From the IMG/VR virus record IMGVR_UViG_3300018059_000034, positions 1 through 30,264 of that record: DNA of 30,264 nt; one strand, given 5' to 3'. Both the position numbers and the translations under genes were made by a program. The notes beneath the pieces were generated by a model. The model saw only the letters and a program-made list of their open reading frames with translations. It searched no databases and had not been told where the DNA came from. Position 1 is the stretch's first letter, and every line of letters starts with the position of its first letter. Positions 6,770 to 30,264 of this stretch are shown here, one piece after another. This DNA comes from a virus.

Positions 6770-8187
6770 TACCATTGTTTTGTAAATACCATTGATGAAG
6801 GATTACGTTTCCTTTTACCTGTTGCATGAACTGCTAAAGCCAGAGCAAAGGCAGAATCTGAGTGACCTTTAGAAGTTCTTTCGGCTGTAAAACTCATCTT
6901 TCCGTTAGTAGAATATGTTCTTTTTATAGAATGTATCTGACTCATGAATTCAATTTCATCCGGAATTTGAATTGTTTTCTCTTCAAAAAGTTTTTTTAGA
7001 TTAGTAAATGCTTGTAATTTAAGGTCTTGAGACATAGAAACACCTTCTACACAATTAAAATCTTTCTCAAGATCTTCTAATAACTGATATCCAACTGCAC
7101 CTTTATCACCTAAAACTTTAATAGGATTAAACTTTTTAATTATTTCAGATATAATATAACGTTGTTCTACAAATGGTTTGTTTTTAATTTCCTGTTTAAA
7201 TATTAATTCATATTTACCAAGACTATTTAAATTCAGAACTATAATTGATGTAGCATCATTAGTTCTACCTACATCAATGCCTATAAATTTATTTCCAGGA
7301 CTTGTCTCACTTAAAGTATCAGACAAACAACCTTTAAGAAGATTATATGGAAAGAAGCTTGTTGATTCGTCTATAAACTCACACTCGTATTGTTCTCTAA
7401 ATGATTCATCATCGTTTTGATTCTGAGTAGCTTTTACGTCTATAGAACAACCAGCTGCAACTGCATCATATACGTTTGTTTGATGATTAACAAAGTCTGA
7501 GAATTGCCCACCTTCTTTGTTCCATATTTTATAAAACATATTTGACTGGCCAAAAGGACGTGAAACGATTCTCATATTATAACCTTTTGTTATGATAGGA
7601 AACAATGAAGCATACAACTGAACATCATCATCGTGTAAAGCAAACTCATCTAAATAAAGATTACCTGAATAACCTTCTCCTGTAACTGCTTTAGAAGTAA
7701 GAGACTTAACATCTACACCATTAATTTTACACTCTGTTTTAGTCCTACTGGTGATTGGGATATTCACTCCTGCTTCGATAAAAATATCAACCCATTTATA
7801 AAACTTATCAAGTAAGAATATAGATTGACGTTCTGATCTACTGACAAAAAACACGTTCTCTTTTTTCTCAAGCACATCGAAGATTAATGCCTCAAGTGCT
7901 ATTGCTTCTGATATACCTATTTGACGGGACTTATTGTATATTTTAAAACGGGCACGGTCTAAAATCCACTGAACCTGATAATCATAAAGTATCTCTGAAA
8001 AAATATAATCTATTATTATATCTAAATTCGATTTATTTTTTTTTCTTGAAACCTTATAACTATTTTTCGGTTTTGGTTGATTCTTTTTTAATTCAGCCTG
8101 TTTCTTTTTTTCAATAACTTTCTTAGTATCTTTTTTAATCTCTCTTGCTATTTGTATAGGGTTGTTAATAAATACAGGTTGTGCCAT
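6769..8187 (-). CDS. terL: Terminase large subunit
   Basis: This 472-residue protein has both terminase activities. The ATPase shows a Walker A-like loop KSRQIGIS (residues 86-93) and Walker B LYLDE (177-181, D180 and E181). The RNase H-like nuclease shows three acidic sites: FIGIDVGRTND (D305), KVLGDKGA (D361) and GHSDSAFALALA (D444). It cuts concatemeric DNA and pumps it into the prohead through the portal. The N-terminal 50 residues are unusually lysine-rich and may bind DNA or the small subunit. Its ATG overlaps the stop of the HNH gene upstream (TAATG), and its stop overlaps the start of the next HNH gene. No residue that I would expect in the active sites is missing. Confidence 0.95.
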   Translation of the reverse strand: MAQPVFINNPIQIAREIKKDTKKVIEKKKQAELKKNQPKPKNSYKVSRKKNKSNLDIIIDYIFSEILYDYQVQWILDRARFKIYNKSRQIGISEAIALEALIFDVLEKKENVFFVSRSERQSIFLLDKFYKWVDIFIEAGVNIPITSRTKTECKINGVDVKSLTSKAVTGEGYSGNLYLDEFALHDDDVQLYASLFPIITKGYNMRIVSRPFGQSNMFYKIWNKEGGQFSDFVNHQTNVYDAVAAGCSIDVKATQNQNDDESFREQYECEFIDESTSFFPYNLLKGCLSDTLSETSPGNKFIGIDVGRTNDATSIIVLNLNSLGKYELIFKQEIKNKPFVEQRYIISEIIKKFNPIKVLGDKGAVGYQLLEDLEKDFNCVEGVSMSQDLKLQAFTNLKKLFEEKTIQIPDEIEFMSQIHSIKRTYSTNGKMSFTAERTSKGHSDSAFALALAVHATGKRKRNPSSMVFTKQW

Positions 8188-8600
8188 TATACAGAATCCT
8201 TCAAATAATTTATTGATTCTTCAAGAATCAAAATATTATCCTTAGAAAATCCTAATAACTTATTACATGAACCACATAATAATTTTCTAACTTTTCCTGT
8301 TTGATGTGAGTGATCAACTACTGCAGGGTTAGAACCTTTAACTTCTATAGATATGAAGTTTTTACAAATTGCACATTTACCTTCTTGATTATCATATCTT
8401 TTAATATATTCTTCCCAAGAAATTCCATATTTCCATTTAATAAAACTCTTTTTATTTTGTTCTTTTATTTCTGGATATCTTTTTTTATTATGCTTTGAAC
8501 AACAGATTTTACAAGAAGAAGTTAAATTATCTTTAAATGTATTATTTTTATAATACTCTGATAATTCTTTTTCTTCTTGACACTTTTTACATTTTTTCAT
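8187..8600 (-). CDS. Endonuclease VII-like HNH homing endonuclease (copy D)
   Basis: This 137-residue protein starts MKKCKKCQEEK, with a second cysteine pair (CKIC) near 30-33. The HNH core is CAICKN, then VVDHSHQTGKVRKLLC and GSCNKLLG. The DHSH variant keeps both histidines of the usual DHNH. The gene lies between the small genes after terS and terL, with its stop overlapping the terL start (TAATG). It is closely similar to copies A, C and E in layout, including the YGISWEEYIKRYDNQEGKC segment that recurs in each with small changes. Confidence 0.85.
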   Translation of the reverse strand: MKKCKKCQEEKELSEYYKNNTFKDNLTSSCKICCSKHNKKRYPEIKEQNKKSFIKWKYGISWEEYIKRYDNQEGKCAICKNFISIEVKGSNPAVVDHSHQTGKVRKLLCGSCNKLLGFSKDNILILEESINYLKDSV

Positions 8601-15195: not shown

Positions 15196-15406
15196 ACATT
15201 GGATTTACTTAGGTTTTACATGGTTGGCTGTTTGTATATCTGTATTTTATATTGGTTATTCAATAACTCCAATCCCATCTCGTCAAGCAGAAAGAGTTGA
15301 TACAACATTAATTGAATTAGAAAAATCTGTTGATAGACTATTACAACAGGTTTTATTACGTGAACGTATGTTAGAAATATTAACGGATACATTAAATGCC
15401 AACTAA
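15185..15406 (+). CDS. Single-pass membrane protein, 73 aa
   Basis: I choose the ATG at 15185 (MQTKHWIYLG), which gives 73 residues and a short overlap with the HTH gene; a start 10 codons upstream is in frame but would lie deeper in that gene. It has one transmembrane helix (IYLGFTWLAVCISVFYIGYS) near the N-terminus followed by a helical, probably coiled-coil segment (TTLIELEKSVDRLLQQVLLR). Such small anchored coiled-coil proteins can be spanin-, antiholin- or exclusion-like; nothing here decides which. It overlaps the glycosyltransferase gene by 11 bases. Confidence 0.6.
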   Translation: MQTKHWIYLGFTWLAVCISVFYIGYSITPIPSRQAERVDTTLIELEKSVDRLLQQVLLRERMLEILTDTLNAN

Positions 15407-16388
15407 AAAAATAACAGGATATGTAAGTGGTGCAAACGGATGTGATTATTACAGAATACTCTCACCATTTAAATATTTAGATCCTACAAAATTTACTGCT
15501 CAGTATAAAACTATAATGGAACCAAAAGATTTTGACTGTATGGATATTATGGTTTTAGGCAGGGCCGACTCTTTTGAGGTTTATCAAAATATGTTTGTTG
15601 CTATAGAAAATGGTATCAAAGTAGTTTATGAATTTGATGATTTATTTCACGAGGTTCCTGAATATAATCCAGCTTTTGAATATTATAATCATCCATTCTT
15701 AAAACCTAATATAGAGATGTTTATACAGAATTCAAATGCAGTAACTGTATCTACAGAATACTTAAAAGAATATTATTCAAAGTATAATTCTAATATACAC
15801 GTTTTACCTAATAGTATTGATTTTACATTATGGAATAAGTTTGAAAAATCCAGATCATCTGATATAGTGATTGGTTGGGCAGGATCTCCAACTCATTCAA
15901 AAGATCTTGATTTAGTAGTAGAAGCTTTGGTTGAAATCTTAAAGTCCAACCCTAAAGTTAAACTTAATGCTGTAGGTTATAATTTCTTAAATGATGAACG
16001 TTTTAAAGAAGTAGGATATCAGCTCAAATTTGCTTCACATTTAGATGTGTATAATTTTCCAAGGTTATTAACAGACTTTACTATAGGTATTGCTCCTATA
16101 GTCGATAATCCTTTCAATAATGGAAAATCTAATATTAAGTTCTTAGAGTATTCTGCTCTTAAGATACCTACTATAGCATCAAACGTAGGGTCTTATAAAT
16201 GCATTCAAGACGGTATTACAGGGTTATTATGTAATACAAAAGAAGAGTGGATTTCGGGTTTACAAAGTCTTATAGATAACCCATCAATTGTCCAAGATCT
16301 TGGACAATTGGCTTATGATTACGTATACGAAAACTTTAATATGGCTAAAACAGCTCAAAAATGGGAAAAGTTGTATAATTCGTTATAA
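15396..16388 (+). CDS. Glycosyltransferase, GT4-like (GT-B fold)
   Basis: This 330-residue protein has the pattern of GT4 enzymes. The N-terminal half begins ITGYVSGANGCDYYRILSPF and has VVYEFDDLFHEVPEYNP and VLPNSIDFTLW. The C-terminal donor-binding half has IVIGWAGSPTHSKDLDLV, then SNIKFLEYSALKIPTIASNV and DGITGLLCNTKEEW, which holds the conserved acidic residues of the E-x7-E type site. It would move a sugar from a nucleotide sugar to an acceptor. It is far from the minus-strand GT2 genes but may serve the same purpose: changing virion, DNA or host surface sugars. It ends the plus-strand operon before the moron promoter. Confidence 0.85.
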   Translation: MPTKKITGYVSGANGCDYYRILSPFKYLDPTKFTAQYKTIMEPKDFDCMDIMVLGRADSFEVYQNMFVAIENGIKVVYEFDDLFHEVPEYNPAFEYYNHPFLKPNIEMFIQNSNAVTVSTEYLKEYYSKYNSNIHVLPNSIDFTLWNKFEKSRSSDIVIGWAGSPTHSKDLDLVVEALVEILKSNPKVKLNAVGYNFLNDERFKEVGYQLKFASHLDVYNFPRLLTDFTIGIAPIVDNPFNNGKSNIKFLEYSALKIPTIASNVGSYKCIQDGITGLLCNTKEEWISGLQSLIDNPSIVQDLGQLAYDYVYENFNMAKTAQKWEKLYNSL

Positions 16389-16393
16389 GAGTA

Positions 16394-16424
16394 TTGACTT
16401 TGAAAAAAAGAATGTGTATATTTG
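16394..16424 (+). promoter_or_regulatory. Bacteroidota-type promoter of the secreted-protein gene
   Basis: TTG at 16394-16396, 20 bases, TATATTTG at 16417-16424: an exact TANNTTTG -7 box. Transcription would start near 16428, 24 bases before the ATG at 16452, with AAGGA in the leader. Confidence 0.75.
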
Positions 16425-16451
16425 TATATATTTAATTAAGGAAAAAACATA

Positions 16452-16805
16452 ATGAAATCAATTTTAATAGTTCTATTTTTAACAGCAACATCAATTTTCG
16501 GACAGAGTTTTAAAAAAGAGTTTGTAAAGGATTTATATGAATATACAACAGATAATAAGAATTTCTATTCTGATAATACAAAAACTGTTTTAGTTATAAA
16601 TCAGGAATTTTCATATCCTACTGTAACATTGAATATTAACTTATTTAATTATATTAAGGGTAGTTTAGATTTAAGTTATGAAGGATTTGTAATTAATGAA
16701 GATAATTATAAAATCGAATATAAATGTGAATGGTGTGATTTTGTTTTAATTAAACCTACATCTGAAGGTAGTAAATTCTATTTAACTGGAATAATGCACG
16801 AATAA
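16452..16805 (+). CDS. Secreted protein, moron-like, 117 aa
   Basis: This 117-residue protein begins with a signal peptide (MKSILIVLFLTATSIFGQ); a cut before or after FGQ is common in Bacteroidota. The mature part has alternating strands (TVTLNINLFNYIKGSLDLSY) and a CEWC pair. No family is recognised. The gene has its own promoter and a terminator, and sits alone between the early block and the lysis block. That is the layout of a moron: an accessory gene that can be expressed from a prophage to alter the host, for example its surface. It could also be a late-secreted factor. Confidence 0.65.
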   Translation: MKSILIVLFLTATSIFGQSFKKEFVKDLYEYTTDNKNFYSDNTKTVLVINQEFSYPTVTLNINLFNYIKGSLDLSYEGFVINEDNYKIEYKCEWCDFVLIKPTSEGSKFYLTGIMHE

Positions 16806-16825
16806 TTAATTTTTCTCCTTGTAGT

Positions 16826-16865
16826 AAAACCCGATTAGTTTATTCTCCTTTACTAATCGGGTTTT
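16826..16865. terminator. Bidirectional terminator between converging blocks
   Basis: AAAACCCGATTAGT at 16826-16839 pairs perfectly with ACTAATCGGGTTTT at 16852-16865, with a 12-base loop. T runs fit on both strands. It lies between the plus-strand gene ending at 16805 and the minus-strand amidase gene ending at 16870. Confidence 0.9.
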
Positions 16866-16869
16866 CTAT

Positions 16870-17427
16870 TTAGTCTTTACTTCTTGTTGCTTTACGAGCA
16901 ATATTCTCTCCTTCAGCATCATTCCCATCAACTGATTCTGCCATCTCAGGATTTACTCCAGTCTTAATATCATCTGGTATCTCATCCATCTTAGCTTTTA
17001 CAAAATCCAAAAACTTCTTAGCCTTCTTAATTTTACTACAAGGACATGCTTTGGCTACCCCAGGAAAATCATTATGTCCCCAGATATCTGTTAACTTTAA
17101 ATCATATTTTTTACATACTTGTGCTGTTATTAAAACCAATCCGTCATATTGTTCTGTAGTCATATATTTCCCAAGATCTGAAGTAGAATCCGTATCAGAA
17201 CCTCTACTAATATAACTAATACCAATATTACCAGTATTTTGCCCAGCTACATGAGCACCTGTAATATTTTCAGGTCTCATTGGATATATAATACCCTTAC
17301 GGTCTACCAGGAAATGATACCCACATTGTGACCATCCATTAGCTATATGAATTGCTTCTATATCTGCTGGTGTTGCATCATTATTTGATGCAGTGATATG
17401 AATAGTCAAACGATTAATTTTAGCCAT
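16870..17427 (-). CDS. N-acetylmuramoyl-L-alanine amidase endolysin (Amidase_2, T7 lysozyme-like)
   Basis: This 185-residue enzyme cuts the amide bond between muramic acid and the stem peptide to lyse the host. Zinc ligands by analogy with T7 lysozyme are H10 (TIHITAS), H118 (GHNDFPG) and C128 (KACPC); Y37 in CGYHFLVDRKG and K126 match the catalytic tyrosine and lysine. GAHVAGQNTGNIGISYI (57-73) is the usual core. There is no signal peptide, so it needs a holin; the candidate lies at 19798. The last ~35 residues (DDIKTGVNPEMAESVDGN onward) are polar, probably disordered, and beyond the normal domain. It is the last gene of the minus-strand block before the bidirectional terminator. Confidence 0.93.
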   Translation of the reverse strand: MAKINRLTIHITASNNDATPADIEAIHIANGWSQCGYHFLVDRKGIIYPMRPENITGAHVAGQNTGNIGISYISRGSDTDSTSDLGKYMTTEQYDGLVLITAQVCKKYDLKLTDIWGHNDFPGVAKACPCSKIKKAKKFLDFVKAKMDEIPDDIKTGVNPEMAESVDGNDAEGENIARKATRSKD

Positions 17428-17429
17428 TA

Positions 17430-18005
17430 TTATTGAACCTTTCCTTGAACACTAAAGTTATGGAAACATAAAATCTTATCCACAAACATTGTTGTGTTTT
17501 TATAATCTTTATATAATTGTTGTAATAAAATTCCGTCTGCTGTAAGACATTCTTCCCATAATCTGCCATTATTTCTATAGACTATTTGAGCACCATCAAC
17601 TTTACATGGTATCATATTTTCTGGTGCTGCTTTTAAGAAATTACCTTCACATCTATCTTGCCCAAACACAAACATATCAATATAAGGATTTTCATTTATC
17701 AATTTATTAATTTCTACAAAAAAATCTGGATGAACTATATTATCTGAATCAACATAACAAACCCACTCTCCAAATGGTATTTCTTTTAATGATGAATTTC
17801 TATTTCGATTAGCCTTGAATGTTTTATTTAATTCACATCTTTCATCTATCCAATTTTCTTCATAGAAGTGGTCAATCATATAATCATAAACTATATACCA
17901 TTTGATCTTAAAAAATTCATGACCGGGAATAATACTTTCCTTAGTTAACTGTAGAAATTCATGATCCCTAATGCAAGTTGTTGTTTGAATATTTAGTTTA
18001 TTCAT
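17430..18005 (-). CDS. Glycosyltransferase, GT2-like (GT-A fold)
   Basis: This 191-residue protein has the marks of a short GT-A enzyme: NIQTTTCIRDHEF at the start, FKANRNRNSSLKEI and then GEWVCYVDSDNIVHPDFF with a DSD metal-binding motif (86-88). The acceptor side has DGAQIVYRNNGRLW and ECLTADGILLQQL. It starts 8 bases inside the end of the upstream gene and is 2 bases from the amidase gene. Three glycosyltransferases and one methyltransferase in the window suggest a modification pathway. Confidence 0.75.
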   Translation of the reverse strand: MNKLNIQTTTCIRDHEFLQLTKESIIPGHEFFKIKWYIVYDYMIDHFYEENWIDERCELNKTFKANRNRNSSLKEIPFGEWVCYVDSDNIVHPDFFVEINKLINENPYIDMFVFGQDRCEGNFLKAAPENMIPCKVDGAQIVYRNNGRLWEECLTADGILLQQLYKDYKNTTMFVDKILCFHNFSVQGKVQ

Positions 18006-18231
18006 ATTTAGATAAGAACTCCGTCTCTGCTTTTAAAATAGCTTCTAATGTTTCTTTTGGAAGAGGTAAATCTATCTTTTCTTGGATAAATTCAATTAAT
18101 TTAATATTCCAGTCTTGATCAGACTCTATTCTTGTTTTGGGAGGTCCAATTTTCATAGGAATTATTTGTGTAGGATAGTTATATGTAAAATTACAATTCA
18201 CGTAGATTCCTTGTTCTTCAGTTTGTTCCAT
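17998..18231 (-). CDS. Small protein, 77 aa, unknown
   Basis: This 77-residue acidic protein (MEQTEEQGIYVNCNFTYNYP, later LIEFIQEKIDLPLPKETLEA) overlaps both neighbours by 8-14 bases. The overlaps and residue mix support it. I recognise no family; the C-terminus is helical. Confidence 0.6.
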   Translation of the reverse strand: MEQTEEQGIYVNCNFTYNYPTQIIPMKIGPPKTRIESDQDWNIKLIEFIQEKIDLPLPKETLEAILKAETEFLSKYE

Positions 18232-18556
18232 ATTGTTCTATAACCTCCTTAATTTGGTCATCATTAAATGGTTGTATTGACTGTTCAACTAAACTTTTAA
18301 ATTTTCTAATATTAAACTTATTAAGAAACCACATGAAATAAATCTCAGGGAACCATTGATGTTTCATATTACATCCACGACATTGTGCATGGCAATTTAG
18401 AGGATTATATCTAATTCCAATTCTCTTCGATGTAATTAGATGTCCTGCAGAAACCCCATCCTTAGATCCACAGATAACACACTGTAAATCTCTTTCTCTT
18501 ATAAATTTATTAAAAACCTTATCAGCTTTATTAATTAGTGATTTTCTTTTAGTCAT
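18218..18556 (-). CDS. NinG/Rap-like HNH protein
   Basis: This 112-residue protein matches the NinG (lambda Rap) type of HNH protein: FNKFIRERDLQCVICGSKDG, then VSAGHLITSKRIGIRYNPLN and CHAQCRGCNMKHQWFP, with the helix YFMWFLNKFNIRKF. Two cysteine pairs hold zinc; the histidine in AGH and the asparagine in YNPLN are the catalytic-site positions of the family. Lambda Rap is a structure-specific nuclease that helps recombination. Its place here, in a cluster of sugar-modifying genes, is odd for a recombination gene, so it may be a homing relative instead. It overlaps the methyltransferase gene by 8 bases. Confidence 0.75.
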   Translation of the reverse strand: MTKRKSLINKADKVFNKFIRERDLQCVICGSKDGVSAGHLITSKRIGIRYNPLNCHAQCRGCNMKHQWFPEIYFMWFLNKFNIRKFKSLVEQSIQPFNDDQIKEVIEQYGTN

Positions 18557-19130
18557 TTTTTCTCACTATTATACAGATTCCATTAAAAACCTTATCGTCA
18601 ATGGGTAATAATTCTATAACTTCTGTATTACAATATTCAAATAATTCTTTTAAATTCTCAGGTAAAAACACAGAATGATGGTCATCCCTTTTAGGATTTA
18701 ATTCTGGATGTTTGTTTCTATCAATCCATTCTTCTAATCGAGTGATGGGTCTTGATTTATCTGATTCAAGTCCTCTTTCTTTATGAGGAACTATGCAGTA
18801 AATGAAACCTTCTTGTTTAAGAACACGAAGCCATTCTTTTATACAAAAAATAGGATCCCAGATATGTTCTAATAAATGACTTGAGAGCACGTAATCTAAA
18901 GAATTATCTTCAAATGGTAAACAGGAAGCATCAGCTATAATATCTATTTTCTGTATATCATTACATAATCTTAATTGTTCTAAACCATAAGCATGTGTTG
19001 ATTGAGGTTGATATTGGTCAACAAAAATACAATCTTTTATATTAAACGGATTATGTTTTGATGGACCAAGTTCGATTCCTTTTAATCCATCCAAATATTT
19101 ATGTGCTATTTTACTATCTTGAAATATCAT
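18549..19130 (-). CDS. Class I SAM-dependent methyltransferase (type 11)
   Basis: This 193-residue protein resembles small methyltransferases of the kind found in sugar-modification clusters. KGIELGPSKHNPF (17-29) is the SAM-binding motif I variant ELGPS. DIIADASCLPFEDNSLDYVL (63-82) and SSHLLEHIWDP give the motifs II and III region. Then come EWLRVLKQEGFIYCIVPH and a distinct DDHHSVFLPENL. It probably methylates a sugar or related small acceptor transferred by the flanking glycosyltransferases. Its start overlaps the stop of the GT2 gene upstream. Confidence 0.8.
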   Translation of the reverse strand: MIFQDSKIAHKYLDGLKGIELGPSKHNPFNIKDCIFVDQYQPQSTHAYGLEQLRLCNDIQKIDIIADASCLPFEDNSLDYVLSSHLLEHIWDPIFCIKEWLRVLKQEGFIYCIVPHKERGLESDKSRPITRLEEWIDRNKHPELNPKRDDHHSVFLPENLKELFEYCNTEVIELLPIDDKVFNGICIIVRKND

Positions 19131-19798
19131 TTTACCTTCGTTTTATTTTTAACTGCATTATTAAATTCATAGATGGTTTCTAAGTTATTAAATCTAAATG
19201 ATCCTGCACCAGATTTTATATTATATTCAGACATCCTTTTAGAATATTTATTATTCTTTTGTAAAACAAAATCAATACCCATCCAACAATAATGTAGTAA
19301 TTTAATACCAGAATTACAAGTTTTTAGATTTGATTGATGATTACCTATACTTAAATGTTCTCCAATTGTTGGTTTGAAAATAATAGGTTTACTATAGAAT
19401 TCATTAGGAACTCCCTCAGTTATAGAATCAAACTCTTCTTGTGTTTTTGGAAATTCTAAGGCTACCATATTATATCCTATAGTAGAATAAACGTCTTCAT
19501 GAAGCTCTAATGAGTTCGAAATTTGGACAAACTCATCAATTGCAACTATTATTACATAATCTGCTGTAGAATTCTTCCAGCACGTATTAAATATTTTCAT
19601 CATTTCTAAATCATTTAAAGTATCTTGAGTATCCAAATATCGTATTTCTACTTTAGGGTGAGATTTTAAAATTTCTAAAGTTCTATCTGTAGAACCATTA
19701 TCATAAATAATTATTTTATCACAAAACTTTTCATAATGAAAAAGGAAAAAACTTATCATTTTTTCCTCATTCCAACAAATAGAATATACTTCTATCAT
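19127..19798 (-). CDS. Glycosyltransferase, GT2/GT92-like (GT-A fold)
   Basis: This 223-residue protein starts MIEVYSICWNEEKMISFFLF and has IIIYDNGSTDRTLEIL (29-44), the nucleotide-sugar-binding region of family 2. YVIIVAIDEFVQIS carries the acidic motif in the form AIDEF, where D-x-D is more usual; the first aspartate is replaced, so metal use may differ. GNHQSNLKTC and LHYCWMGIDFVLQKNNKYSK follow. It overlaps the methyltransferase gene by 4 bases and the holin candidate by one. It likely acts with the methyltransferase and the other GT2. Confidence 0.78.
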   Translation of the reverse strand: MIEVYSICWNEEKMISFFLFHYEKFCDKIIIYDNGSTDRTLEILKSHPKVEIRYLDTQDTLNDLEMMKIFNTCWKNSTADYVIIVAIDEFVQISNSLELHEDVYSTIGYNMVALEFPKTQEEFDSITEGVPNEFYSKPIIFKPTIGEHLSIGNHQSNLKTCNSGIKLLHYCWMGIDFVLQKNNKYSKRMSEYNIKSGAGSFRFNNLETIYEFNNAVKNKTKVK

Positions 19799-20034
19799 TA
19801 GTTTATATTAGTAGTTTTATCTTTCTCTGTGAATGATTGTGTAACTTTTGCACCTAAACCAAAACCAAGTAATACTGAAATTAAATAAGTCAAATCTGTG
19901 ATAACTTTACCAGCAAAAACTAACCATAATGCACTAAAAGCAATAAAAATAGCAGTCACCACTAAAACAAATGTAAGTAGACGTGTCATTGATAATTGAC
20001 CATTAGGTTCTTTAAAAAACTGACTAAAGGACAT
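19798..20034 (-). CDS. Holin candidate, two transmembrane segments
   Basis: This 78-residue protein has two hydrophobic helices: LLTFVLVVTAIFIAFSALWL (19-38) and ITDLTYLISVLLGFGLGAKV (45-64). The N-terminus and the charged tail (TEKDKTTNIN) are short. Size, two membrane spans and position between a spanin candidate and the endolysin block suit a holin, which makes the pores that free the amidase. No clear family signature is present. Confidence 0.6.
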   Translation of the reverse strand: MSFSQFFKEPNGQLSMTRLLTFVLVVTAIFIAFSALWLVFAGKVITDLTYLISVLLGFGLGAKVTQSFTEKDKTTNIN

Positions 20035-20657
20035 TAAAATAACCTCACTCCTGCTTTAACTTTTAATTTAAGATCTTTTTGATTAAGATCATACTCTCCA
20101 CCAATATCTAAAGAATATTTCTCTTTATAAGATAGCCCAGTTGTTATATCTACTTTATTATTAAACCTATTCTTTAAATCACTTATAGGACGTTCGTGTT
20201 GAAATCCTATATTTACACCCTTCCATTTATACTTTTCTGATTTGACTATTATTCTATCTGTGCTGGAATATGCAGTAAAATTTCCAAATACTTCTTCGAA
20301 AACTTGTTCTTTGATTAAGGAGTCATTTATATTTACTGCCCAAATTCTTAATGTAGTTCCCTTCTTCTCAAATCCTAAAGATAAATCATAATCTTTAAAC
20401 TTTTCTATATCTCTATAACTGATTTTTTCTTGATATATAATTGTTGGTTCTGATTCTTTAGAAATCAAATTCTTGATTATATTATTATGAATAGTATCGA
20501 TTCTACTTTCGTATCTTTCGAGAGTTGTAGTATCGTGAACAAATATTGTTTCAGAGTTTCTTTTTTCACCACAATCAAAATCAGGTAAGCTAAGAAAAAG
20601 AATTGCAATACATCCTAAAAGAAAACTTATTAAATGGGTTATTATTTGAGGTTTCAT
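20034..20657 (-). CDS. Membrane-anchored beta-rich protein, spanin candidate
   Basis: This 207-residue protein has an N-terminal membrane helix (IITHLISFLLGCIAILFLSL) followed by a charged helical stretch and then many alternating strands. The final strands (KYSLDIGGEYDLNQ, DLKLKVKAGVRLF) end in phenylalanine, like the C-terminal strand of outer-membrane barrels. An inner-membrane anchor plus a C-terminus able to meet the outer membrane is the logic of a spanin, and its neighbours are lysis genes. There is no lipobox, so a classic o-spanin is unlikely. The family is unknown, and a virion role is possible. Confidence 0.45.
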   Translation of the reverse strand: MKPQIITHLISFLLGCIAILFLSLPDFDCGEKRNSETIFVHDTTTLERYESRIDTIHNNIIKNLISKESEPTIIYQEKISYRDIEKFKDYDLSLGFEKKGTTLRIWAVNINDSLIKEQVFEEVFGNFTAYSSTDRIIVKSEKYKWKGVNIGFQHERPISDLKNRFNNKVDITTGLSYKEKYSLDIGGEYDLNQKDLKLKVKAGVRLF

Positions 20658-20908
20658 TTTTGATCCATTTTCTCTTTCATATCTTTTAACATACTTTCTA
20701 TATTAGTAAGCTTAGTGTCCATCCTAATTACAATATCATGATCTGATTTGTAATCAGACTTTAATTGTTCTATATCTCTTTCAGCCCGGTCTACCTTTTC
20801 TGTGTAACCACCTGTAGTTTTACCTGACACAAATACACTTGTGCCGACTGAAAGAACTAAAGCAATGAGTGGTATGATAAGGGGTTTTACCCAATTGTTG
20901 TTTAGCAT
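20654..20908 (-). CDS. Single-TM coiled-coil protein (XhlA-like layout), lysis-associated
   Basis: I choose the ATG at 20908 (MLNNNWVKPL, 84 residues) because it lies one base past the stop of the gene upstream, a usual coupling; the frame is open to 20941 with earlier starts. It has one transmembrane helix (PLIIPLIALVLSVGTSVFVS) and a long coiled coil (YTEKVDRAERDIEQLKSDYK to the end). The layout, with a coiled coil and a membrane span in a lysis cassette, resembles XhlA-type proteins, but the order of helix and membrane span is reversed. It overlaps the next gene by 4 bases. Confidence 0.6.
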   Translation of the reverse strand: MLNNNWVKPLIIPLIALVLSVGTSVFVSGKTTGGYTEKVDRAERDIEQLKSDYKSDHDIVIRMDTKLTNIESMLKDMKEKMDQK

Positions 20909-20909
20909 A

Positions 20910-21539
20910 TTATACGACATTAACAATAAACCAATATACATTCACACCCACATCGGCAGCACCAGCAGAAGAAGTTATTTGAAAATCTGTTCCATTAGTT
21001 ATACCACTTATATAAATTATACCAGTTGGAACGGGTTCAACACCTGTTGCTCTTAGTGTTAGTAATATTTTTGAGGCAGAAAGAACTTTATTAGTGGTAA
21101 CTGTTACTAAACCACTTGCATCTAATGTTGCTTGTCCAGCATATTCACCATCTCTAAGATTAATCCCATTAAGTTCTGGAATTGTAGCACCATTTGGATC
21201 TAAAATTATTTTTGGTGTATCTGCCTGAAGTATATTAACTGTTTCACCACCATCTGTTGTTACAGTTGAGCCTATATTGATTGTATTTACTGCTGAAAAT
21301 TCTAAACCTGTATCACTTAAAACTGTAGCTGTTTCAATAGTTACAGGATTAGTGATCACTACATCACCACCTATGATCAAATCAGGGTCAACAGGATCTA
21401 AAGTAAAATAAGTAGTACTACCTGATAATATTTCGGAACCAGATATATGAATATTACCTGCTTTTACTTCTCCTGAAAGTTCAAGCCCACCGGCAGTGTC
21501 ATCAGTAATTGTAGCTGTGCCTATTTCTATTTTTGTCAT
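20910..21539 (-). CDS. Tail fibre / receptor-binding protein
   Basis: This 209-residue protein is almost all beta strands with glycine and asparagine turns (IEIGTATITDDTAGG, VKAGNIHISGSEILSG), suggesting a trimeric beta-structured shaft. From about residue 138 it carries a C-terminal head module: GLVTVTTNKVLSASKILLTL, then GIIYISGITNGTDFQITSSA and a closing VNVYWFIVNVV. This type of module ends many phage fibres. Its place after a larger tail protein and an HNH gene, and before lysis genes, fits the distal fibre. The host receptor is not predictable. Its stop is followed after one base by the ATG of the coiled-coil gene. Confidence 0.75.
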   Translation of the reverse strand: MTKIEIGTATITDDTAGGLELSGEVKAGNIHISGSEILSGSTTYFTLDPVDPDLIIGGDVVITNPVTIETATVLSDTGLEFSAVNTINIGSTVTTDGGETVNILQADTPKIILDPNGATIPELNGINLRDGEYAGQATLDASGLVTVTTNKVLSASKILLTLRATGVEPVPTGIIYISGITNGTDFQITSSAGAADVGVNVYWFIVNVV

Positions 21540-23735: not shown

Positions 23736-25228
23736 TATGTAATATTATTTATTAACTGGATATTGTATGACTTGTCATCAATATTTATATTGTTCACTCT
23801 TTCAACTGTATAAGTTTGACCTTCAAAAAGAGCTTCATCAAATGATAGAACCAAGAAATCAAACTCTGACATTATTTGTAGTTCTTTGACTCTTTGGAAT
23901 TGGTTTATTAAATGCATATATGTTACTGAGCTTACAAAATCTTTTGCAACTAAATCAGCACCATCATCACTATAATGAGTCCGTGTTACTCCAAAAGCAG
24001 AATAATTAAAATGGGCATATGTTTTAACGAAACATCTGCAAATTGATAAATGAGTGATATTAATATTGCCACTACCTATATTATTATTAATTTCCCAAAA
24101 AGCTTGTGAAGAATTTCCTATTAATAGAGCTGGAAGATTTTTCTCAACCATATCAATATCTATTGTTGTGAAATTTTTCTCTCCGGTTAAATCCCATATA
24201 CCAAAAGGGAAACCAGTAGATAAGAGAAAAAGCCATAACCTATGAGCTGAATTTGGAGTAACTGATGGATAAAATCTCATTTCAACATATTCTATATGAC
24301 CTGGGCCTGCTTTACCTACAACGATACCCTTAAAGTTATCACCCTCTGTATATTGACCTTCAGTTATTTTAACATGAGGAATACCATAAAACATTAAACG
24401 TTCATCAATATCTGTTCTTAGTTCGTGGTGATCTATTGTATCATCTATTACTACTGCTGGAACACCATAATTCAAACCGTATTTTCTGTTGAAAAATGTT
24501 ATTGTTAACCAATTCCATTGTTCAACTCTTACGTTATGTGCTGAGATTTTGAAAAGCAAACCGAAACCCTTACAAGCTGCAATCAGCATTTTATCACAAG
24601 TCTCATTATAAAACATTCTGTGTAAAGGTGACAACTTGTTAAACACTCCTATATTATTATTATTTAAACCGGCAGATAAATTAAATCCTGCATGACCATA
24701 ACTACATAAATGACTACACCACATCCAGAAGTTCTGTCCTTCAAGTCCATCTATTTGGCTTACAAATTCATAATAAGACTTTGTTTCTAACCCATTAATA
24801 AATTCTACCTCTGCACTGTATACTGTAAATTTTAAAGTCTGTGAATCACTCTCTTTCCAGTTATAATTAAAATCAAAGCTTGTGTTATCAATAAAGCCTA
24901 CTAATTTCTGGACACCATCTACTTCTATTATTATTCTTAAACGTATTCTTGTTGTTGTTGAATATCCGAATTGGAAAAATTTATTTACTGTTAAACCGTT
25001 ATTGGACCTAACTGAATCATCCAAGAGGCTTAATACCATATCATATTCACCACCCTGAAGTGTAACTGAATTATTATCCCTGGTGAATTCATCTGAGAAT
25101 AAAGGAAAGGAATCCAGTGGTAAATCATCAACAATCAAATAATCTTCGACAACTAAATTACCTGTAAGGAAATAGTTAATTCCAAAATCAACACTACCAC
25201 CTGAAAATTTTGTTATTAATACTTTCAT
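23735..25228 (-). CDS. Tail tip / baseplate hub-like protein
   Basis: This 497-residue protein directly follows the tape measure, the place of the distal tail and hub proteins. The N-terminal ~150 residues are beta-rich: FSGGSVDFGINYFLTGNLVV, SVTLQGGEYDMVLSLLDDSV and IIIEVDGVQKLVGFIDNTSF, the last like the first hub domain. The central part includes YNETCDKMLIAACKGFGLLF and KISAHNVRVEQWNW, a pattern of hub proteins that build a lysozyme-free channel. The C-terminus has EFDFLVLSFDEALFEGQTYT and VERVNNINID. Its start overlaps the tape-measure stop by 4 bases (ATGA type). The exact family is not proven. Confidence 0.6.
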   Translation of the reverse strand: MKVLITKFSGGSVDFGINYFLTGNLVVEDYLIVDDLPLDSFPLFSDEFTRDNNSVTLQGGEYDMVLSLLDDSVRSNNGLTVNKFFQFGYSTTTRIRLRIIIEVDGVQKLVGFIDNTSFDFNYNWKESDSQTLKFTVYSAEVEFINGLETKSYYEFVSQIDGLEGQNFWMWCSHLCSYGHAGFNLSAGLNNNNIGVFNKLSPLHRMFYNETCDKMLIAACKGFGLLFKISAHNVRVEQWNWLTITFFNRKYGLNYGVPAVVIDDTIDHHELRTDIDERLMFYGIPHVKITEGQYTEGDNFKGIVVGKAGPGHIEYVEMRFYPSVTPNSAHRLWLFLLSTGFPFGIWDLTGEKNFTTIDIDMVEKNLPALLIGNSSQAFWEINNNIGSGNINITHLSICRCFVKTYAHFNYSAFGVTRTHYSDDGADLVAKDFVSSVTYMHLINQFQRVKELQIMSEFDFLVLSFDEALFEGQTYTVERVNNINIDDKSYNIQLINNIT

Positions 25229-26736
25229 CCTAAAATCCTTTTGGGTTGTCGTGTATCGGCCTGTTGTTTACCATTAACATAAATCTTATAAGAGTCAAGT
25301 TTTTCAAATCTGGTTGAAAGGAATACATCTACTTTAGGTGATGTCATGGATGAACTTGCAACATAACCACCGTTCATAAATGTGGCTTGACCTATCTTAC
25401 CGGAACTACCATTTAATAAAGACAATAACGGATAATATTGTTCAGTTGATTTCTTGTTGATAACAAATTCTCCAGGAGTTAACATAGCTGGCACTGTGTC
25501 TCCGTTACCCGAACCAGGAACTGGGCCACCTTTTGCTAAAAAGAACGGTAATATACTTAAAGCAGTTGTAAATAATCCACCAAATATAGAACCTACATCA
25601 CCATTTTTAAATCCTTCAAACACTAAAGCAAGTCCAGCTGCTGCACCGGCTAATTGACCAAGTGCTGGTAATAAGCTTGAACCAGTTTGTTGTGAAGATT
25701 GTTTTAATGTGCCTGCAGCATCATTAGCTACTTCAGTATAATTTTCTATAGCTGAAGATAAACCACCACCTGCACCACCTTTATTAGCTTTAGGACGGGC
25801 TGACTTTGATGTATTACGTCCATTAGGAACGTCAAATATTATTTCATCCCAATCTTTATCTTTTGTTATATCAATAACTCTTTGAGGTGAACTTAATGAA
25901 GCTCTACCAGGATCACCTGAGAAAAATGGGTTAGCTGCTTGTGCAGGATTATCTACCCATACATGAACTCGTCCTTCTCCTGAAAGTCCACCACTACCTG
26001 GTTTTGTTTTAGCATTTATTTCATTTAAACCATTTATTAGTTTAGTTATTTCTTTAACTGTATCAATAAAACTAATTAGGGTTTGAACAAAACTAACTAC
26101 TTGGGTTGCCAAATCAACAACACGAGCAATACCTTCTGATACACGTCCAAGACTATCCCTTATTAGGGTAAAAAATTGATTAGCACCAGTAGCAATTGTA
26201 TTGAATATTTTTTTACCATATTCAGCTCTTGCTGTTTCTTTTAATATTTTTTCTTGTTTTTCTAATTCTTGAGTTTTCTTTTTTAATCCTTCACCTTCTG
26301 CACTATTAAGAACAACAGCTTCTGCAGTAGTTTCTAAATTAAGAATATTAGCTTCATAAATTCTCTGATACTCTAATAGATTTAATTTATTCTGTGAAAG
26401 AATTTTATTAGCATTAGCTAATTCTTCTCCACTTAATCCAACTATTACTGCCTCTTGTAAAGCTATTTGTTTTTTTAATTCTTCAGCATTTTGAAAAGCA
26501 GCAATTGCATCAACCGATGCTTGTGCAGTTTTTTGATCTATGAGTTTCTGATCAAAAGCTTTTTGAATTTGCTCTAATGAACTATTAAAATCATTTCCCT
26601 TAAATAGTTCTATAGTTCCTTCTTGTAATTCTTTAAATGTAGAAGTTATTTTTCTTCTCCATCCTTCGATATTACCATCTATCTGTGAATGATTTTTCAA
26701 TCTCACTTGTTGAAAAAGAAGAAATCCAAGCAGCAT
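25225..26736 (-). CDS. Tape measure protein, C-terminal part (frame 2)
   Basis: This frame is 503 residues long from a nominal ATG at 26736, but the first ~20 residues lie in the overlap with the N-terminal part and read poorly. The product is a helical and coiled-coil protein with a hydrophobic segment (SIFGGLFTTALSILPFFLA) and the typical tape-measure ending KGGPVPGSGNGDTVPAMLTP and GEFVINKKST. It therefore looks like the second half of the tape measure encoded upstream. The two frames differ by +1 (or -2). Tape measures set tail length and are normally one continuous chain, so this is a frameshift, an assembly error or a true two-gene form. Confidence 0.8.
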   Translation of the reverse strand: MLLGFLLFQQVRLKNHSQIDGNIEGWRRKITSTFKELQEGTIELFKGNDFNSSLEQIQKAFDQKLIDQKTAQASVDAIAAFQNAEELKKQIALQEAVIVGLSGEELANANKILSQNKLNLLEYQRIYEANILNLETTAEAVVLNSAEGEGLKKKTQELEKQEKILKETARAEYGKKIFNTIATGANQFFTLIRDSLGRVSEGIARVVDLATQVVSFVQTLISFIDTVKEITKLINGLNEINAKTKPGSGGLSGEGRVHVWVDNPAQAANPFFSGDPGRASLSSPQRVIDITKDKDWDEIIFDVPNGRNTSKSARPKANKGGAGGGLSSAIENYTEVANDAAGTLKQSSQQTGSSLLPALGQLAGAAAGLALVFEGFKNGDVGSIFGGLFTTALSILPFFLAKGGPVPGSGNGDTVPAMLTPGEFVINKKSTEQYYPLLSLLNGSSGKIGQATFMNGGYVASSSMTSPKVDVFLSTRFEKLDSYKIYVNGKQQADTRQPKRILG

Positions 26737-28510
26737 TTAAATCTAAACTTCTTTGTATTTCAAGAACACGTTCTTTTACACCTTGTAAAAATCTTATAGA
26801 CTCTAAAAATGTTTTTTGTGCTTCTCTAACAAGATTAGTTTGATTTTCAAAGTTCTTTAATCTTTCAAATTCTAAATTTTTAGACTTCTCAGTTAAAGTA
26901 AATATCTCCTGGTCAACTCTTTTTATGTTATCTTTTTCAGTTAACTGAGTTTTCAAAGTCTGTAGTTGAGTAGTATGCTTGTTATTTAATTTAACAGCAT
27001 CTTCTACAGAAGCTTCTCCACGAGAAATCTGACCATCAAGTATTTCTAATTCTTGTTTTTGTTTATCAAGAATATCATCTAATAATTTATCTTCAGTTTT
27101 TAACTCGTCATTATTTTCTTTAGAATTCTTGGTAATTTGTTTACCAAACTTAACCTGTTCTTCTCCTATACCTGTTCCACGAGAACCTGGACCTTGAGCT
27201 GTTTGTGTTGCTGTCTGAACTGATTGTATTTTAGAAATAATACCACTTACATCAAATCCTAATAACGAAGCAATAGGTTCTATTAATTTAAGAATAGTAA
27301 CTAAACCTTCTTTAAAGAATTTTAATTGTGCATTGATTTCACCTACTACATCACCGAAGATTGTTACAAGCACTTTAGAAACAAATCCAGCAACTGACAG
27401 TAAATCACTTGCTACTTGTAAAGCAACTTTACCAATTAACTTTAAAGCTGATATAATCTGAGGATTTTGCTCTATTATTTTAGAAAGCTCAGTGAATAAT
27501 TGAAATGATGCTTTCTGTGCAGACTTTATGGCCGGCACGATTGAATTAACAAATACAGTTGAAACTGATTTTAAAGCAGTCTTCAATGTATCAACTATAT
27601 CAACACCACCAGTAAGTTCTTTGAAAAGATTTTGAGCATTATCAATTAATTCAAGAACTGCTCTTACAAAAGGTTCAAAACCTTCAGCTAAAATACTAAG
27701 TAAGTTAGCTTCAAAGTCCTGTAAAATTGTATTTACCTTTTGAAAAGCATCAGCTTGATCTAATTGTTTTTTATTAATATCTGATATACTATTACCATAT
27801 AAAGCAAAGATTGCCTGTTTACGTAATAACTGTTGGTCTTCATCTGAAAAATTCTTAAGATTAGCAACAGTAGTATTACCTAATTTAGCCATCTCTTTTT
27901 CAAGCTCAACTATATCAATCTTTAAACCAAGAGCACCTTTTTTAGCACCAGTTTCTATAAAACGTGTAAGGGCTTCTACAGCAGCATCTACGTCACCACC
28001 AAAGAATTCAGTTCTTGTTTCTGCTACATCAAATAATTTAGCTATATCCTGGTCTGTGTTACCTAACAGTCTTAAACTATTAGCTAACTGCATTATTTTA
28101 GTCTGGTCTAAATTACCGGCCAGTGCTTTACCAAATAACTCTAATGATTTACGAGAATTGTCAGAACCACCTGATAACTCATCAAACTTTGATTTTAAAA
28201 CATTAAATTCTGCACCTGGTTTTAAAGCATTAACTGCTGCTATGAAACCTTTCACTGCTGCAATAGAAGCAACGATAGCTACTGTTACTGTTGCTACAGC
28301 AGCTCCTACAGCTAAAAATGCAGTAGAACCTGAAACACCAACTGCAGATAATCCTTGAGTAAGGGTTTTTGACTGACCAGTTAATCCTATTAAGGATTTA
28401 GACAAACCCTGAGATGTTTTTTCAACACCTTGAAGATTAGCATTAGTCTGTTGAACACCTTTATTATCAGATGTTGTAGTGACTTTAATATTTAAATTCT
28501 TATCAGCCAT
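26672..28510 (-). CDS. Tape measure protein, N-terminal part (frame 1)
   Basis: This frame gives 612 residues. It starts MADKNLNIKVTTTSDNKGVQ, then a long alanine- and valine-rich hydrophobic segment (FLAVGAAVATVTVAIVASIA near 64-83). The PhageMin_Tail-type region follows: FNVLKSKFDELSGG, KALAGNLDQTKIMQLANSLR, ETRTEFFGGDVDAAVEALTR and FAL-like repeats. It ends in coiled coil and a stop 65 bases past the nominal start of the second part. Its ATG overlaps the stop of the tail-completion gene (TAATG). It sets tail length and helps DNA ejection; it lacks the usual C-terminal membrane and PGEF-like segments, which are in the next frame. Confidence 0.85.
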   Translation of the reverse strand: MADKNLNIKVTTTSDNKGVQQTNANLQGVEKTSQGLSKSLIGLTGQSKTLTQGLSAVGVSGSTAFLAVGAAVATVTVAIVASIAAVKGFIAAVNALKPGAEFNVLKSKFDELSGGSDNSRKSLELFGKALAGNLDQTKIMQLANSLRLLGNTDQDIAKLFDVAETRTEFFGGDVDAAVEALTRFIETGAKKGALGLKIDIVELEKEMAKLGNTTVANLKNFSDEDQQLLRKQAIFALYGNSISDINKKQLDQADAFQKVNTILQDFEANLLSILAEGFEPFVRAVLELIDNAQNLFKELTGGVDIVDTLKTALKSVSTVFVNSIVPAIKSAQKASFQLFTELSKIIEQNPQIISALKLIGKVALQVASDLLSVAGFVSKVLVTIFGDVVGEINAQLKFFKEGLVTILKLIEPIASLLGFDVSGIISKIQSVQTATQTAQGPGSRGTGIGEEQVKFGKQITKNSKENNDELKTEDKLLDDILDKQKQELEILDGQISRGEASVEDAVKLNNKHTTQLQTLKTQLTEKDNIKRVDQEIFTLTEKSKNLEFERLKNFENQTNLVREAQKTFLESIRFLQGVKERVLEIQRSLDLNAAWISSFSTSEIEKSFTDRW

Positions 28511-28932
28511 TAAATTGTATTATTCTGTTTTTCTAAAATTTGATCAATCTGTTTCTGAACTGACTCACTGATACCGAAGAAAGGACGGGCAGGAATATTT
28601 CCTTGACCATTATTTAACATACCTGCAATAATAGATCTTGAACTATTAATAAAGACTTCCCCTGATTTACCGGAACCTTTTTTACCAACTGATCTTAATA
28701 ACAATCCTGTTCTAACAAATGGACGTGAGTTACCTTTTTCTCTAACTGTAAAAGGAGCTAAAGGTTTAACATTACCACCAGTCCATTCACGGCCTGCAGA
28801 AAGATTATCTTCTATACCTTTTCTAATTGCTTCAGTAATATTTAGAATCTGAGAATCTGTTACTGAACAGAATGTTTCTAAGGCTTTTGAAGATAAAAAC
28901 TTTTGTATTTCAGAAGTGTTAATCGTTATCAT
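28510..28932 (-). CDS. Tail completion / virion morphogenesis protein
   Basis: This 140-residue protein has the features of phage virion morphogenesis (tail completion) proteins: an N-terminal helical part, NLSAGREWTGGNVKPLAPFT, the FVRTGLLLRSV segment and a C-terminal IPARPFFGISESV, where PARPF-G-S is the hallmark. These proteins act at the head-tail joint or tail end. The location between tail chaperone and tape measure is a little unusual for that class, which more often sits near the connector. Its ATG lies inside the end of the upstream gene, and its stop overlaps the tape measure start. Confidence 0.65.
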   Translation of the reverse strand: MITINTSEIQKFLSSKALETFCSVTDSQILNITEAIRKGIEDNLSAGREWTGGNVKPLAPFTVREKGNSRPFVRTGLLLRSVGKKGSGKSGEVFINSSRSIIAGMLNNGQGNIPARPFFGISESVQKQIDQILEKQNNTI

Positions 28933-29143
28933 AAAGACAAATACCTATTTTATAACCTAAGATATAAGGTTTAGATTTTTCACTTAAATAATAAACAGCT
29001 TTAATTTTATTAATACTGTTAATCCCTTCAAGAGTTTGAAATGATAATGATGTTTTAGAGTATATAGAATCTTTAATAACTATAAAATCATTTTCATTTT
29101 TATACTTCGTTTTTAAAAAAGCTCTTATGTTATTTCTTTCCAT
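28919..29143 (-). CDS. Small tail-module protein, 74 aa, unknown
   Basis: This 74-residue, basic protein (MERNNIRAFLKTKYKNENDF, then SINKIKAVYYLSEKSKPYIL) overlaps both neighbours by 14 bases. It lies between the frameshifted chaperone and the tail-completion gene. No family is recognised; its tight fit in the operon supports it. Confidence 0.6.
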   Translation of the reverse strand: MERNNIRAFLKTKYKNENDFIVIKDSIYSKTSLSFQTLEGINSINKIKAVYYLSEKSKPYILGYKIGICLYDND

Positions 29144-29426
29144 CTGAATATCTTTCGTTTAGTTCTGCCTCTTGGAAGTTATCAAACTGTTTGAAGCTGG
29201 TCCACTCTATATAGTCAACTACGTCGTAATGTTCCTCTATGTAATGCTTCCGTGTGATATCTCCGTTACATAAAGTAAAAATCATATATTCTAATTCTAT
29301 ATTTTCTATGAGTTCGGCTGGTAACGTAATGTCTGCCATATTAGGCAAATCTTTTATTTTATAAACTTTAAAAATTTCTGTGAGTTCTTCACAGTATTTA
29401 TTTACTTGCTGAACTTCGAAAAAAAA
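29130..29426 (-). CDS. Tail assembly chaperone, frameshift extension (T part of a G-T-like fusion)
   Basis: This frame has no good start of its own (TTG at 29348, ATG at 29339, no Shine-Dalgarno), but it is open from the T9 run at 29419-29427. If the ribosome slips back one base there, the chaperone is extended with EVQQVNKYCEELTEIFKVYK, then IKDLPNMADITLPAELIENI, to the TAA at 29130. The fusion would be about 255 residues: 159 from the first frame and 96 from this one. This matches the G and G-T pair found next to the tape measure gene in many long-tailed phages, where the extension binds the tape measure. Confidence 0.7.
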   Translation of the reverse strand, partial: FFFEVQQVNKYCEELTEIFKVYKIKDLPNMADITLPAELIENIELEYMIFTLCNGDITRKHYIEEHYDVVDYIEWTSFKQFDNFQEAELNERYSDGKK

Positions 29427-29896
29427 ACATCCCAGACTTCATAAATAAACTTTAAATATTCATCGTATTCTTTTTCTGTCTGAGGATTATGATTAATAAC
29501 CTGATGATTATCGAACATTATTTCACAAAGTTTCTTACTATTTTCATCAGAAGGTTCACCCTTCAAATCAGTTGTTAAGAAAACTTCTTTAGCATACTCT
29601 TTTAATGACTGAAGTTCTTTAGCCTTTATAGCATATTCAGGATTATCTAAAAGAACTTTAGCAATGACTTCATTTAATTTAGAAGCATCACCATCGTTAT
29701 TAGCAGATATAATATATCCATTAACTTTTTTGTTCTTGAATAAGAAGTCGTTTATTTCTGTCTGAAGTTTTTCGGTGAGAGATTTTTCATATTCTGAAAA
29801 ACCTTTAATGAAAGGCATAGCCTTAACACGATAGGGTTTAAAGCTATTTTTACGTAAAGTAAGTTCTTTACCTTTATAGGTATATTTTTTTTCCAT
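29402..29896 (-). CDS. Tail assembly chaperone (G-like product)
   Basis: This 164-residue soluble, helical protein (KKYTYKGKELTLRKNSFKPY, IKAKELQSLKEYAKEVFLTT, DEYLKFIYEVWDVFFSKF) lies just upstream of the tape measure block, the place of tail assembly chaperones. These bind the tape measure during tail assembly and are not in the mature virion. The case rests on position and on a canonical slippery heptamer near its 3' end. Most ribosomes would stop here; a minority would make the longer fusion. The similarity to known chaperones at sequence level is not visible to me. Confidence 0.7.
   Translation of the reverse strand: MEKKYTYKGKELTLRKNSFKPYRVKAMPFIKGFSEYEKSLTEKLQTEINDFLFKNKKVNGYIISANNDGDASKLNEVIAKVLLDNPEYAIKAKELQSLKEYAKEVFLTTDLKGEPSDENSKKLCEIMFDNHQVINHNPQTEKEYDEYLKFIYEVWDVFFSKFSK
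29420..29426 (-). promoter_or_regulatory. -1 ribosomal frameshift site T-TTT-TTT
   Basis: In the chaperone frame the codons read GTT TTT TTT TCG; the heptamer T TTT TTT (X XXY YYZ type) is complement of 29420-29426, inside a run of nine T residues. A slip of one base gives TTT TTC GAA and then an open frame of about 96 codons. I did not identify a clear downstream pseudoknot or an upstream Shine-Dalgarno-like stimulator. Confidence 0.7.
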
Positions 29897-29970: not shown

Positions 29971-30264
29971 TTAACTTACGGGTGTTTCAACAACTGTGTA
30001 GTAATCATTAGCTGCTATATTAACTGTCTGAGTTGCAAAAGCACCTATTGCAGTTAATTGTGCTACTGAAATAGTTACAGTCGTAGCAACGATTGAGGAT
30101 TTATACTCAAACGGCATACGTCCACCTATCCATGTTACACTTGCTTGAGGTGTAATCTGACCAACAGCAAAGAATATCTCTTGGTGTTTACCGTCTTTTA
30201 TTCCGTTGTATTTATACATCCACTCCACTGATGACCGACTGGTTGACACTCCCGCCGATGGAAA
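29971..30264 (-). CDS. C-terminal part of a virion protein (5' end outside the window), perhaps major tail protein
   Basis: The frame is open to the window edge, so the real start lies beyond 30264; a GTG at 30249 is only nominal. Visible residues include SAGVSTSRSSVEWMYKYNGI and a beta-rich end (IVATTVTISVAQLTAIGAFA, then NIAANDYYTVVETPVS). It is followed by a hairpin and the tail chaperone, the place of the major tail (tube) protein in siphophages. The sequence itself is not diagnostic, and it could also be the end of a different virion or fibre protein. Confidence 0.5.
   Translation of the reverse strand, partial: FPSAGVSTSRSSVEWMYKYNGIKDGKHQEIFFAVGQITPQASVTWIGGRMPFEYKSSIVATTVTISVAQLTAIGAFATQTVNIAANDYYTVVETPVS

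Follow-up and report, generated by a model that had tools for sequence, protein, structure and literature searches.

A candidate G/GT-type tail assembly chaperone pair with an all-T slippery site in an AT-rich phage genome

The window analysed here is the whole of IMG/VR record IMGVR_UViG_3300018059_000034, with a length of 30,264 bases and a GC content of 30.5%. Its gene products include a terminase, a portal, a head maturation protease, a major capsid protein and a head-tail adaptor, as well as a tail terminator-like protein and a tape measure-like protein. A minus-strand ORF of 164 aa (29402–29896) lies between a putative tail tube gene and the tape measure region, and from this place and the G/GT layout described below it was annotated as the candidate tail assembly chaperone (G-type product). 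The partial ORF upstream of it (29971–30264) has no family match, and we infer from its position that it encodes the tail tube protein. Downstream, past an extension termed T, two small genes, for a 74-aa and a neck-like 140-aa protein, precede a TMP-like ORF (26672–28510, minus strand) and a tape measure-like ORF with a PHROG tape measure match (25225–26736, minus strand).

Several further features of the window were recorded. The two tape measure-region ORFs overlap by 65 bp; codon-usage scores leave the first frame for the +1 frame at about 26690–26710, and the overlap ahead of this switch is not coding-like for the second ORF. The split could stem from an indel in the assembly, a recent mutation or a second recoding site. 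The gene for the neck/tail-completion-like protein (28510–28932; phrog_26, 1.4e-8) comes after the chaperone pair and before the tape measure gene. Both contig ends (1–938 and 29971–30264) cut minus-strand tail-region genes, with fn3 repeats followed by the apparent start of another domain at the left end and, likely, the tube C-terminus at the right end; the record may be a near-complete permuted genome minus a short piece between its ends. Two endonuclease VII-like genes are present in this 30-kb genome, one beside the terminase and the other between capsid and adaptor (2237–2665 and 8187–8600). A block at 15396–21539 contains glycosyltransferases, a methyltransferase and a K1-lyase-type C-terminal domain (20910–21539), which suggests a tail spike degrading or modifying polysaccharide.

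The 3′ end of the 164-aa ORF reads GAT GTT TTT TTT TCG AAG TTC AGC AAG TAA on the minus strand. It contains a T9 homopolymer (29419–29427), inside which the heptamer T_TTT_TTT (29420–29426) is in phase for tandem -1 slippage, with the codons GTT at 29428–29426, TTT at 29425–29423, TTT at 29422–29420 and TCG at 29419–29417. The 0-frame stop TAA (29402–29404) follows 15 nt beyond the heptamer. In the -1 frame, no stop occurs between a point just upstream of the T run and the TAA at 29132–29130; after a slip, this frame would be read as TTC GAA GTT CAG and onwards to that TAA. The resulting T extension (29130–29420, minus strand) comprises 96 residues and a stop, FEVQQVNKYCEEL...SDGKK, and the predicted fusion is 255 aa long, made up of 159 residues common to both products and the 96 of the extension. 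The initial annotation had described this heptamer, its phase and the open -1 frame down to 29130, all of which we confirmed. The 74-aa ORF begins at 29143 and shares 14 nt (29130–29143) with the end of the T extension; because of this overlap its translation may be coupled to frameshifted ribosomes.

We then evaluated whether the site exceeds chance. When codons were shuffled synonymously, genes of the window were expected to contain 0.79 runs of at least nine T, with one seen; the T9 run alone is therefore unsurprising at 30.5% GC. Runs of at least seven T are rarer than expected (4 seen versus 6.7 in the same shuffles), and of 40 genes the chaperone gene alone carries one within the final 12 codons. 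Taken together, however, the phase, the place and a coding -1 frame go beyond chance. Codon-usage scores favour the 0 frame as far as the T run and, from there on, the -1 frame. The 26 coding-like -1-frame codons ahead of any ATG (29340–29417, minus strand) score 0.21 per codon. Out of frame, this value was reached by 0 of 792 open windows; among true in-frame windows, 27% scored no higher. Intergenic windows were left out of this null, as they contain unassigned ORFs and a fair share of their open stretches attained the score. Among dinucleotide shuffles of the same 78 nt, 0.65% were open and scored as high. From these results, the -1-frame stretch ahead of any ATG is probably translated.

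This bears on the alternative that the T region is a separate gene, starting from ATG 29339 or TTG 29348 and perhaps expressed by re-initiation after the chaperone stop. These two possible starts lie 80 and 71 nt beyond the heptamer, respectively, and neither has a Shine-Dalgarno-like site. The initial annotation had stated that the downstream frame has no credible start; this wording was slightly overstated, since many real starts in the same phage also lack such a site. The sequence upstream of ATG 29339 is A-rich like that of other starts in the phage, and a weak DUF6648-like match begins near this ATG. Against a separate gene, the 26 codons ahead of the ATG are coding-like, and the ATG is not conserved in the relative described below. 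We consider a separate T gene extremely unlikely.

Relatives were sought with each part of the locus. The 164-aa ORF had no match in Pfam, PHROGs, NCBIfam, PDB sequences or 50,697 phage records, and an exact-peptide search of IMG/VR returned no direct relatives. Its AlphaFold model (pLDDT 45), with an N-terminal hairpin and helices, was too poor for fold comparison or search. The chaperone label is a positional one, based on gene place and layout and not on a family match; because chaperone-position ORFs show low sequence similarity among phages (PMC5009743), the missing match does not exclude membership. A phrog_6724 match to T was weak, was not reproduced on repeat and was discarded. The match of the T domain to DUF6648 (29130–29291, around the motif LCNGDITRKHYIEE) reached 25 bits versus a cut-off of 27 and was not used. 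A tape measure search yielded just a short common motif near the C-terminal part, and capsid and terminase searches yielded distant relatives only (roughly 24–33%), in which no homologue of the chaperone pair was detectable. Among viral contigs and phages, no close relative was found.

Distant relatives were finally recovered by a portal-based search. One of them, IMG/VR contig IMGVR_UViG_3300049483_000190 (L281; 8,554 bp, 54% GC), shares with the window its portal (27.5% identical) and capsid (27% identical), and also the tail terminator-like and neck-like genes. At the chaperone position, it has a 107-aa ORF (8114–8437) at the contig end, and the homologue of the window's T region lies in the -1 frame, overlapping the 3′ end of this ORF. 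The two T regions are 29% identical over 51 residues and share the motif LC[ND]GD[IV]T[RK], with a Smith-Waterman score of 78; the best of 3000 shuffles scored 54, and the best of about 11,300 other ORF pieces scored 52. The L281 homologue has no match to the DUF6648 model. The chaperone ORFs of the two contigs no longer align. The -1 relation between chaperone and T domain is thus kept in one distant relative. Because the L281 T frame contains no ATG, GTG or TTG ahead of the conserved core, it can hardly be a separate gene.

The slip site itself is less clearly conserved than the frame. Within the -1-open overlap of L281, the sole canonical X_XXY_YYZ heptamer is T_TTT_TTC (8356–8362), which is in phase; in 34 codons, chance would give about 0.004. 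This heptamer lies 72 nt ahead of the stop, leaving a 0-frame tail longer than that of the window (24 codons past the T-rich site). The 14 -1-frame codons right after it are not coding-like, and for this reason the shift in L281 may instead occur at GGG AAA AAG (8399–8407), the alternative site GGGAAAAAG. We therefore regard conservation of a T-rich site between the two contigs as suggestive. L281 also differs in that its neck-like gene, of the same family as that of the window, directly precedes the chaperone, whereas that of the window comes after T, and in that the contig ends within T.

The same comparison bears on whether the two frames are an artefact. A sequencing or assembly error, or a T9/T10 polymorphism in the population, would make the real gene one 255-aa ORF; the site is a homopolymer in a metagenome contig, and indels in this contig are conceivable given that the tape measure gene also changes frame (26736/26672). 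On the other side, frame is retained at two further homopolymers, A9 in the terminase (8044) and T8 in the portal (5970), and the short 0-frame tail and stop agree with the layout in other phages. Because two independent contigs share the -1 relation between chaperone and T domain, such an error or polymorphism is disfavoured, and we judge it very unlikely.

We surveyed all contigs collected to that point, checking phase, and obtained about 40 more chaperone-like ORFs, each followed by a long tape measure-like ORF. The counts are not a census, as the contigs had been selected for similarity in capsid, portal, terminase or tape measure; a few entries (e.g. L089, L179, L199 and L255) are probably not chaperones. 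In most of these ORFs the heptamer lies 0–39 nt before the stop, and the -1 extension is about 50 to 150 codons long. The commonest heptamer was A_AAA_AAC (23 of 44 entries), followed by G_GGA_AAC and C_CCA_AAC; T_TTT_TTT occurred in the window only. Phages sharing the HK97-type portal/capsid module, such as Erysipelothrix phage phi1605 and Javan630, have a homologous capsid and the same gene order as the window. Their pairs resemble that of the window in having a -1 extension, there of about 67 codons, and a heptamer 12–15 nt before the stop. They differ in using A_AAA_AAC or C_CCA_AAA as the site, and phrog_2115 is matched by the chaperone of phi1605 but not by that of the window.

A -1 frameshift producing a short chaperone and a T-extended fusion is known from lambda and most long-tailed phages (PMC5009743). 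The window has the features of such a G/GT pair, namely an in-phase heptamer near the end of the first ORF and an overlapping second ORF in the -1 frame that is coding-like ahead of its first ATG. Given the coding potential, the gene position, the layout shared with about 40 contigs and, above all, the T domain without a start in L281, we consider it probable that a G/GT-type tail assembly chaperone pair is made by a -1 frameshift on T_TTT_TTT, as the initial annotation had interpreted the locus. Most ribosomes would read the 164-aa 0-frame protein and terminate at 29402, while a minority would slip back by one base on T_TTT_TTT (29426–29420) and continue in the -1 frame to 29130, yielding the 255-aa fusion whose first 159 residues are those of the short protein. 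If the lambda case is a guide, the role of the short protein would be to coat the tape measure protein, and that of the T extension to bring in tail tube subunits.

The pair resembles lambda gpG/gpGT in position, in the -1 direction and in having a short major and a C-terminally extended minor product. It differs in the heptamer, which is GGGAAAG in lambda, in that no sequence match was found between the two, and in the two small genes that separate T from the tape measure gene in the window. A closer parallel for the site is found in P2 and its relatives, whose chaperone genes shift at TTTTTTG without downstream structure (PMC3091744). Like the site in the window, that of the -1 shift in P2 gene E/E+E′ is a T-only run where the chaperone gene ends, next to the tape measure gene, and no downstream RNA structure is involved. 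In P2, however, the last base of the heptamer is G, whereas in the window it is T within a run of T9. P2 is a myophage, and the window's chaperone matches no annotated family. In the window, folding of the 101-nt region is no more stable than that of shuffles (z = -0.16), and no stimulatory structure was found; a small hairpin, CTGTGA-AGAAC-TCACAG (29378–29394, minus strand; -5.7 kcal/mol), lies about 25 nt beyond the heptamer, too far downstream for a canonical stimulator. The initial annotation had called TTTTTTT a less common choice; all-T sites are uncommon, yet they are known, as P2 illustrates. A literature search covering mainly openly accessible papers found no report of TTTTTTT as a chaperone shift site. 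In E. coli, U_UUU_UUU slips less readily than A_AAA_AAG (PMC5009743), which we counted against the proposed shift, but shifting at a low rate is just what a G/GT pair calls for.

Slippage of RNA polymerase is the chief alternative; it could add one U on T9 and give a U10 mRNA, normally translated into the same 255-aa fusion. The added U gives the -1 frame and joins the two coding frames, and the run of nine exceeds what the heptamer needs. In many bacterial genomes, avoidance of slippage-prone runs sets in at 9A/9T, and some IS elements make use of such runs for their expression (PMC1088944); as A/T runs lengthen, insertions of a single base become steeply more frequent (PMC5574713). Conversely, the T9 run also holds a perfect in-phase ribosomal heptamer, and the G/GT shifts described in a review are ribosomal (PMC5009743). 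The canonical site of L281, the one distant homologue compared, has only T6, which is too short for polymerase slippage, and because of this we favour the ribosome over the polymerase as the slipping partner. That polymerase slippage on T9 sets the G:GT ratio wholly or partly, instead of or besides ribosomal frameshifting, is rather improbable in our assessment. The initial annotation had offered the junction peptide as a check of the frameshift; since ribosomal slippage, U10 transcripts and T10 DNA would all give VFFFEVQQ, mass spectrometry by itself does not reveal which of them is at work.

The putative ribosomal shift in the window is of the known G/GT kind, and its uncommon part is the all-T slip site. 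With it, the listed chaperone shift sites would gain an all-T heptamer from an AT-rich phage that lacks close relatives, and the -1 frame relation persists in a relative although the chaperones can no longer be aligned. The site is a natural one at which ribosomal and polymerase slippage would yield the same protein, making it a simple case for telling the two apart.
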